Source: Dioscorea cayenensis subsp. rotundata
Lineage: Eukaryota; Streptophyta; Magnoliopsida; Dioscoreales; Dioscoreaceae
Assembly: GCF_009730915.1 (NCBI RefSeq)
Contig: NC_052487.1
Location: forward strand, 372,001-436,000
Length of the DNA: 64,000 bases
Direction: 5' to 3'
Shown here: positions 9,219-16,697 of the stretch, piece after piece
How positions within the stretch are numbered: position 1 is the stretch's first letter
Layout of the letters: the number at the start of each line of letters is the position of its first letter
Translations under genes and position numbers: made by a program
Notes under the pieces: model-generated
What the model was told of the DNA's origin: nothing
Seen by the model: only the letters and a program-made list of their open reading frames with translations
The model's database searches: none

Positions 9219-12200
9219 GCCTGGGCCTGAGCCCTGGGCCTGGGCCTGGGCCCTGGGCCTGGGCCTGGCCTAGGCCTGAGCCACCAGGCCTGGGCCTGGG
9301 CCGCAGGCTGAGCCCTGAGCCTGGGCCTGAGCCCTGGGCCTGGGCCTGGGCCTGAGCCTGGGCCACAGGCTGGGCCCTGGAGGCACCAGGCCCTGGGCCT
9401 GGGCCCCTGGGGCACAGTGCCTGGGCTGGGCCTGGGCCTGGGCCTGGGCCTGGGCCTGGGCCCTGGGCCTGGGCCTGAGCCCTGGGCCTGGGCCTGGGCC
9501 TGGGCCTGGGCCTGGGCCTGGGCCTGGGCCTGGGCCTGGGCCTGGGCCTGGGCCTGGGCCTGGGCCTGGGCCTGGGCCCCTTAGGCCTGGGCCCTGGGCC
9601 TGGGCCTGGGCCTGGGCCTGAGCCTGGGCCTGGGCCTGAGCCTGAGCCCTGGGCCACTGGGCCTGAGCCTGGGCCTGAGCCCTGGGCCTGAGCCCTGGGC
9701 CTGGGCCCTGGGCCTGGGCTGGGCCTGGGCCTGGTACAGGCTGGGCCTGGGCCTGGGCCCTGGGCCCTGGGCACTGGGCCTGGGCCTGAGCCTGGGCCTG
9801 GGCCCTGGGCCTGGGCCTGGGCCTGGGCCTGGGCCTGGGCTGGGCCTGGGCCTGGGCCTGGGCCTGGGCCTGGGCCTGGGCCTGGGCCTGGGCCTGGCCT
9901 GGGCCTGGGCCACTGGGCCTGGGCCTGAGCCTGGGCCTATGAGCCTGGGCCTGGGCCTGAGGCACTGCAGGCCTGGGCCTGGGCCTGGGCCTGAGCCTGG
10001 GCCTGGTACAGGCTGGGCCACTGGGCCTGGGCCTGGGCCCTGGGCCTGGGCCCTGAGCCTAGGCCACCAGCCCTGGGCCTGAGCCCTAGGCCTGAGCCCT
10101 GAGCTGGGCTGAGCCCGGGCCACTGGGCTGGGGCACACTCGGCCCTAAGCGCAGGCCCTGAGCCTGGGCCTGGGCTGGGCCTGGGCTAGGCCCGCAGAAC
10201 AAAGCCTGACCTGAGCCCTAGGCCTGAGCCCTGGGCCTAGGCCTGAGCCTGAGCCCTGGGCCTGGGCCTGGGCTGGCTGGGCCTGGGCCCACCAGGCTAG
10301 GCCCTGGGCCTGGGCCCTGAGCCTGGGCCTGGGCCTGGGCCTGGGCCTGGGCCCTCAGGCCTGGGCCTGGGCCTGGGCCTGGGCCCTGGGCCTGGGCACT
10401 GAGCCTGGGCCTGGGCCCTGGGCCTGGGCCTGGGCCTGGGCCTGGGCCTGGGCCCTGAGCCTAGGCCCTGGGCCTGGGCCTGAGCCCTGAGCCCTGGGCC
10501 TGGGCCTGGGCCTGGGCCTGGGCCTGGGCCTGGGCCCTGGCCTGGGCCTGGGCCTGAGCCTGGGCCTGGGCCTGGGCCTGGGCCTGGGCCTGAGCCTGGG
10601 CCTGGGCAGCCTGGGCCTGGGCCACTGGGCCTGAGCCTGGGCCTAGGCCTAGGCCCTGGGCACGGCCTGGGCCTGGGCCTGGGCCCTGGGCCTGAGCCTG
10701 AGCCTGGGCCTGGGCCTGGGCCTGGGCCTGAGCCTGGGCCTGAGCTGGGCCTGGGCCCTGGGCCCTGGGCCTGGGCCTGGGCCCTGGGCCTGGGCCTGGG
10801 CCTGGGCCTGGGCACTGGGCCTGAGCCTGGGCACAGGCCCACTGGGCCACTGAGGCCTGGGCCCTGGCGCAGGCCTGGGCCTGGGCCTGGGCCTGGGCCT
10901 GGGCCTGTAGGCCACGGCCCTCGGCCTGGGCCACTGCCTGGGCCACGGCCTGGGCCTGGGCCTGGGCCCTGGAGGCCTGGGCCCTGGGCCTGGGCCTAGG
11001 CCTGGGCCACAGGCCTGGGCCCTGGGCCCTGGGCCTGGGCCCTGGGCCTGGGCCTGGGCCTGGGCCTGAGCCCTGGGCCTGGGCCACGGCCTGGGCCTGG
11101 GCCTGGGCCTGGGCCTGGGCCCTGGGCCTGGGCCTGGGCCCTGAGCCTGGGCCTGGGCCTGGGCCTGGGCCTGGGCCTGGGCCACTGGGCGCAGGCGCAG
11201 GCCACTGAGCCACGGCGCTGGGCCCTGGGCCTGAGCCTGGGCCCTGGGCCTGGAGCTGGGCCCTGGGCCCTGGGCCCTGGGCCCTGGGCCCTGGGCCTGG
11301 GCCTGGGCCTGGGCCCTGGGCCACTGGGCCTGGGCCTGGGCCCTGGGCCTGGTACAGGCCTGGGCCTGGGCCACTGGGCCTGGGCCCTGGGCCCTGAGCC
11401 GGCCTGGGCCCTGGGCCTGGGCCACTGCTTTGAGCACGCAGACCTGGGCACGGGCCCTGGGCTGTGAGCCCTGGCCCTGGGCCTGGCCTGAGCCTGCGCC
11501 TGAGCCGCAGACCGCAGACCACGGCCGGACCACGCCTGGGCCTGAGCCTGGGCCCTGGGCCCTGGCCCTGGCCCTGGGCCCTAGGCCCTGGGCCCAGGCC
11601 TGGGCCTGGGCCTGGGCCTGGGCCACTAGGCTGGGCTCGGCCTGGCCCTGGGCCCTGGGCCTGGGCCTGGGCCTGGGCCCTGGGCCTGAGCCTGGGCCCT
11701 GGGCCCTGGGAGGCCTGGGCCTGGGCCTGGGCCCACAGGCCTGGGCCCTGGGCCTGGGCCCTGGGCCACTGAGCCTGGGCCTGGGCCTGGCCTGGGCTAG
11801 GCCTGAGCCTGGGCCCTGGGCCTGGGCCTGGGCCTGGGCCTGGGCCTGGGCCTGGGCCTGGGCCCTGGGCCCTGGGCCTGTTTTCGCCCTGGAGCCCTGG
11901 CCCTGGGCCTGGGCCCTGGGCCTGGGCACTGGGCCCTGGGCCTGGGCCCTGGGCCTGGGCCCTGGCCCTGGGCCTGGGCCTGGGCCTGGGCCCTGGGCCT
12001 GGGCCCTGGGCCTGGGCCTGGGCCTGGGCCCTGGGCCCTGGCTGGCCTGGGCCTGGGCGCTGGGCCTGGGCCCTGGGCCACGGCCCTGGGCCTGGGCCCT
12101 GGGCCTAAGACTCGGCCCTGGGCCTGGCCCTGGGCCTGGGCCTGGGCCTGTTACAGGCCACTGGGCCCTGAGCCCTGGGCCCTGGGCCTGAGCCCTGGGC

Positions 12201-16640: not shown

Positions 16641-16697
16641 AAGCCCTAAAGAGCTCTGAAACCCTACCCTAAAACCCTAAAACCCTAAACCCTAATT
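16641..16697. repeat. Arabidopsis-type telomere repeats (CCCTAAA), right edge of the array
   Basis: From 16657 to 16695 the units read CCCTA, CCCTAAAA, CCCTAAAA, CCCTAAA, CCCTAA. Just left of this lie intermediate forms such as CCCTAGG and CCCTAAAG. The plus strand carries the C-rich strand and unique sequence lies to the right, which is the orientation of a left chromosome end. Confidence 0.85.

Follow-up and report, generated by a model that had tools for sequence, protein, structure and literature searches.

A CCTGGG Array beside a Scaffold Gap in the White Guinea Yam Reference, Very Probably a Miscalled Telomere

Structure of the Array and of Its Surroundings

The window, i.e., the whole stretch of 64,000 nucleotides that was analysed, corresponds to C17:372001–436000 in the reference of white Guinea yam (Dioscorea rotundata; 584,211,761 bases in total, 22,358,743 in C17). 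The accession GCF_009730915.1 has been assigned to TDr96_F1 (PMC13128126), and the genome paper of this reference is PMC7749330. From left to right, the features of the region are the following.

6454..7447, plus strand: exons of an ATM-like gene (match to P0001), the annotated protein of which stops short of the gap on the right
8219..9218, no strand: scaffold gap of exactly 1000 N
9219..16500, plus strand: CCTGGG/CCCTGGG array, read as a miscalled telomeric C-strand repeat (CCCTAAA)n
16501..16695, plus strand: transition zone of mixed CCCTGAG, CCTAAG, CCCTAGG and CCCTAAA units ending in CCCTAAAACCCTAAAACCCTAAACCCTAA, read as the telomere–subtelomere junction
17065..17608, plus strand: subtelomeric tandem repeat of 193 bp, 2.8 copies (TRF)
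17605..19210, plus strand: subtelomeric repeat family common to the flanks of other arrays (C4, C12, C5R)
21606..21794, plus strand: short telomere-like repeats in interstitial position, in which AAA is called (TAAACCCTAAACCC; TRF), with CCCTAAACCCTAA at position 21711

TRF identified a single tandem array of period 6 with 1155.5 copies, and the GC-rich sequence measured approximately 7.4 kb. An earlier note made from the letters had described such an array as CCTGGG/CCCTGGG, with CCCTGGG taken as its unit. The array was there, grading into CCCTAAA by position 16,695, and the 7-mer was present (243 non-overlapping copies in the array region), but the main unit was the 6-mer CCTGGG (637 copies). 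CCTGAG or CCCTGAG (91 copies) and CCTAGG or CCCTAGG (24 copies) were minor units. The six copies of CCTAAA or CCCTAAA in the array region were all located in its last bin (16,219–16,697), the first one near position 16,594. The sequence CCTGGGCCTGGG occurred 522 times in the window, as compared to a mean of 0.01 after shuffling, whereas the exact pair CCCTAAACCCTAAA was absent from the whole window, the terminal units being separated by one extra A. Deep in the array, the triplet following CCT (n = 896) was GGG in 800 cases, GAG in 72, AGG in 17, GGA in 4 and AAG in 3. Where the C-rich unit of a telomere has AA(A), the array had GG(G), which is the substitution that a miscall would leave.

The passage through mixed forms into real CCCTAAA and the orientation of a left chromosome end, both asserted by the note, were borne out. 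The units shifted stepwise to CCCTAAA across positions 16,500–16,695 or so (approximately 200 bp) and gave way to AT-rich unique DNA. The C-rich strand was on the plus strand with the unique DNA to its right. On the left, the array directly followed the 1000 N, a gap that the earlier note had not mentioned, and consequently started at a contig edge.

Further to the right, four similar segments starting at positions 51,548, 54,909, 58,286 and 61,671, about 3.37 kb apart, formed a tandem repeat of approximately 3.4 kb (51,548–61,912). The same segments matched DNA located outside the C14 telomere gap, on its outer side.

ATM Sequences on Both Sides of the Array

The open reading frame 6361–7023 matched the 251-aa ATM-like protein P0001 of Dioscorea cayenensis subsp. 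rotundata with 100% identity over 78% of its length. P0001 ends in WFVCL, which is the end of the open reading frame 7274–7447. The ATM name of these left exons follows the NCBI label of P0001, as the exons themselves matched neither Pfam nor PDB entries. They lie on the plus strand and head toward the gap (C17:372001–380218).

Six FATC matches were found genome-wide, one of them on the plus strand at C17:735058–735132. The exon beside it, the one FATC locus among the six for which solved structures were compared, had ATM as the best match (E = 7e-20), ahead of Tel1, SMG1 and ATR. An ATM kinase C-terminus is thus found at C17:733.6–735.1 kb, and its strand is that of the truncated ATM part on the left. 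In the genome search with the FAT family, matches were confined to C5, C11 and C13, so that the ATM exons of C17 had none beside them. ATM apparently is split on C17, between 372001–380218 and 733558–736632.

The ATM sequence to the left of the array is probably not its continuation, the scaffold gap lying between them and the ATM kinase exons lying approximately 353 kb to the right. We infer that the two parts belong to one gene, with a telomere contig inserted between them; the annotated 251-aa protein would then be a fragment. A telomere contig lodged between two parts of ATM makes the scaffold look misjoined.

CCTGGG Arrays in the Rest of the Genome

Whole-genome pattern searches located CCTGGG arrays at at least 13 places, on C1, C5 (two), C8, C9, C10, C11, C13 (two), C15, C17, C18 and C20. 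Exact (CCTGGG)4 matches numbered 5707, of which ten arrays accounted for 4064; we presume that the remainder is mostly on C18. The outer edge was seen in all found arrays except that of C18, which makes 12 edges, and the inner edge in 10 of these 12 (the left array of C13 and that of C15 being left out).

At all 12 outer edges, the array adjoined a run of N where a telomere tip would be situated, i.e., on the left of plus arrays and on the right of minus arrays, which is the 5′ side of the C-rich strand. The C-rich strand accordingly ran 5′ to 3′ inward from the tip at each of them, as in a telomere. The gap measured exactly 1000 N in 11 cases, and at least 887 N on C15. Ten of the 12 arrays were at most 1.01 Mb away from a pseudochromosome end, as compared to 1.24 expected (P of about 3e-9, for a limit chosen after the distances were seen). 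None occupied the tip itself, the C10 array being 14 kb off. The orientation fitted the nearer pseudochromosome end in 8 of the 12 arrays and was inverted in four. The arrays opposite to the nearer end were both those of C5, the right one of C13 and that of C15; the C18 array (approximately 302–305 kb, minus strand) also was, judging by strand only. These observations suggest that the oppositely oriented arrays correspond to inverted contigs, and we read the 12 arrays as telomere-bearing contigs that were misplaced or flipped.

Could the arrays instead be a GC-rich satellite that truly exists, having arisen from telomere repeats as proposed in Chenopodium, and that merely breaks the assembly? 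Repeats do break assemblies, and CCTGGG arrays beside TTTAGGG, with dispersed FISH signals, have been published by Belyayev et al. (PMC10521516). A satellite, however, would break contigs on either side and in either orientation, whereas the telomeric side was involved in each of the 12 outer edges. It would also not account for the clustering near pseudochromosome ends. Together with the edges and the unit order described below, these points make the satellite, which the earlier note had kept as its alternative, highly improbable.

Gradient from A to G at the Array Edges

For each CCT[AG][AG][AG] unit, the proportion of A among the last three bases was computed as a function of the distance from the array edge, edge positions being placed by hand from the sequence. 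Pooled over 12 edges, this fraction was 0.70 in the first 25 bp, 0.62 and 0.54 in the next intervals, 0.34 at 75–100 bp, 0.17 at 100–150 bp, then 0.09 and 0.07, and at most 0.03 beyond 300 bp. At the C17 edge, it fell from 1.00 (0–50 bp) to 0.42 (75–100 bp), 0.27 (150–200 bp) and 0.02 (300–400 bp). In 13 of the 14 edges examined, A was raised near the unique DNA and yielded to G within approximately 100–200 bp. The gradient was present and more irregular at the C8 and C10 edges; on C8, A remained high up to 200 bp, the flank being itself telomere-like and the edge ill-defined. One C20 edge (C20a) showed a weak rise of A (0.25–0.33). The exception was the left array of C5, near 452.1 kb, where A was 0.17 near the edge, the junction was abrupt and AAA or CCCTAAA units were absent. 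This abrupt edge is what a satellite might show; it is also possible that it is a chimeric join.

On C20 (approximately 3974900–3979200), two interstitial telomere-like blocks of about 0.8–0.9 kb alternated with copies of a subtelomeric unit of about 1.2–1.4 kb. With the subtelomeric unit on both sides, the blocks had a GGG centre and a raised A content at both ends. A gradient on the scale of short reads, present on both sides of interstitial blocks, argues against a satellite, and its extent of 100–200 bp would fit a correction by short reads that had their anchor in the unique DNA.

The C20 blocks show that interstitial telomeric sequences can also be called with GGG. The array of the window could in this way be an old interstitial block, miscalled, and truly located inside the chromosome where it was assembled. 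Both C20 blocks, however, are bounded on two sides and are smaller than 1 kb, whereas the array of the window extends over 7 kb up to a contig edge, and the contig would have to sit inside the ATM gene. We consider an interstitial origin extremely unlikely.

Order of the Units

In a satellite whose variants were real mutations, runs of variants would be copied along the array by unequal exchange. The repeat information contained in the unit order of 10 arrays was 18–27 bits, as compared to shuffle means of 17–18 bits (SD of 1–2). It exceeded the maximum of 60 shuffles in two of the ten arrays (27 versus 24 bits on C10 and 22.7 versus 20 bits on C17), and it equalled this maximum on C11 (25 bits). 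In power controls, a single duplication of 20 units yielded at least 30 bits and one of 30 units at least 54 bits; a duplication of 10 units yielded 29 bits on average, with a minimum of 16 bits, and could be missed. The local duplications that unequal exchange leaves in a satellite were not found in the ten arrays at this level. The unit variants largely look like independent errors, with little or no duplication history, which speaks against the satellite. A first-order Markov null for the unit order was set aside as uninformative, as its scores lay above the observed data; they are too high because rare units have few successors.

Canonical Telomeres and Shared Subtelomeric Sequences

Canonical CCCTAAA arrays were present on C4, C12, C14 and C16, among the matches listed from the genome search (471 matches). 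The exact gap of 1000 N was on the expected outer side in three of the four, and the run of N was longer on C12, where it may represent a withheld stretch. In the unmasked 7.5 kb of the C16 array, AAA occupied 1042 of the 1046 triplets. The arrays of this genome fall into a GGG type and an AAA type, a split that a consensus made from one strand would predict.

The flank of the array in the window carried subtelomeric repeats common to other ends. Positions 18,034–19,210 were 85% identical over 1240 bp to the flank of the AAA array of C4. The family at 17,605–19,210 matched the C12 flank in two pieces (68% and 80%) and the flank of the right CCTGGG array of C5 (71% over 1199 bp). Between this C5 array (GGG) and the C12 array (AAA), the identity of the flanks was 83% over 1457 bp, and the match began at about 14 bp from the edge of the C5 array. 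Flanks are thus homologous across the two types, and similar subtelomeres carry AAA at some ends and GGG at others.

The position and orientation of the arrays are telomeric, and one might suppose that the true sequence of these telomeres is CCTGGG, yam possessing two telomere types. Telomerase renews the outer end of a telomere, and a biological variant zone should therefore not keep canonical units only on its inside; here, the canonical units are innermost and the variant ones outermost. Other ends carry canonical arrays with homologous subtelomeres, and the interstitial blocks of C20 likewise have GGG only in their centre. It is scarcely credible, on these grounds, that CCTGGG is the true telomere sequence of these ends. 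A related proposal, that some chromosome ends possess a real, telomere-derived GC-rich CCTGGG array beyond a thin zone of canonical CCCTAAA, with two kinds of ends in one genome, appears very unlikely; it is comparable to the claim of real derivative telomere repeats made for Chenopodium (PMC10521516). On the telomere type of Dioscorea, nothing bearing on this case was found in the available part of PMC7046594, nor was anything on telomere assembly errors in that of PMC12785171.

Origin of the Array

The assembly of white Guinea yam is, we assume, nanopore-based. We are highly confident that the array is an ordinary telomere, miscalled, located at a chromosome tip and misplaced by scaffolding, and not a satellite. 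The proposal of the earlier note that a telomere had been miscalled gains support from the gaps and orientations of the 12 outer edges, the gradient from A to G, the canonical telomeres with shared flanks and the published reading of CCCTAA as CCCTGG. Its corollary, that the DNA to the right of the array starts at a chromosome tip, is favoured by the gap side and orientation at the same 12 edges and by the shared subtelomeric flanks.

We propose the following model. The plus strand of the array would in reality be (CCCTAAA)n, a telomere of the Arabidopsis type. The basecaller would turn AAA of the C-rich strand into GGG and often drop one C, giving CCTGGG, and the consensus at this contig end would have adopted the reading of the C-strand. 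A would be kept only in the first 100–200 bp beside the unique DNA, most likely through correction by anchored short reads, although an effect of sequence context on the basecaller might also create this zone. The contig would begin at the chromosome tip, and scaffolding would have set it inside the pseudochromosome, behind a gap of 1000 N and between the parts of ATM.

Telomeres miscalled to CCTGGG escape searches for CCCTAAA or TTTAGGG; chromosome ends then seem to be missing, and GC-rich satellites that do not exist seem to be there. The yam arrays, at least 13 in number, very likely indicate the position of true chromosome tips that scaffolding has moved to the inside of pseudochromosomes, with ATM apparently split by one of these arrays. 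Each array shows where a contig may need moving or flipping. A test that requires no reads (GGG in the centre, AAA only near unique DNA, a gap on the outer side, and little duplication history) could be used on other older nanopore assemblies of plants. The kind of error was already known; as far as the literature searched shows, what is new is its fixation in the consensus of this reference at 13 sites, together with criteria independent of reads.

Comparison with Known Systems

According to the available text of Tan et al. 2022 (PMC9414165), nanopore sequencing reads CCCTAA as CCCTGG at telomeres, an error that HiFi reads from the same sample do not show; the current profiles have a Pearson correlation of 0.9783. 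Similar errors are reported in A. thaliana, with its 7-mer repeats, and the unit length can change in telomere-like repeats. The error of Tan et al. and the yam array have in common that AA(A) of the C-rich strand appears as GG(G) at telomere repeats. The former was described in reads, whereas the latter has entered the consensus sequence of a plant reference that is published, is mostly a 6-mer and possesses an AAA zone beside unique DNA.

The second comparison concerns Chenopodium, in which Belyayev et al. 2023 (PMC10521516) described nanopore reads dominated by CCTGGG, with CCCTGGG and CCTAGG as minor units, adjoining telomere repeats. The unit mix is the same as in yam. The repeats were held to be real and mainly pericentromeric, whereas the yam arrays lie at contig ends in telomere orientation. 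FISH with a CCTGGG probe was also shown. The authors never found TTTAAAA and CCTGGG in one array, and some of their reads had a few TTTAGGG copies flanked by CCTGGG in opposite directions. When Table 2 was re-summed, CCTGGG was present in 102 of the 200 telomere-type reads (binomial P of 0.83 against one half; heterogeneity P of 0.12, one of the seven accessions being at P of 0.03). Ordinary telomeres would yield this share if their C-strand reads were miscalled, which bears on a published dispute and argues further against a satellite in yam. In our reading, the share and the lack of arrays combining TTTAAAA with CCTGGG fit strand-specific miscalling. Miscalling leaves the Chenopodium FISH unexplained, and the reads flanked in opposite directions would need to be chimeric or fold-back reads.

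Compared with an Arabidopsis-type telomere (CCCTAAA/TTTAGGG)n, finally, the yam array has the same orientation, the same position at a contig end, canonical inner units and canonical arrays elsewhere in the same genome. It differs in its letters, with GGG where AAA is expected.
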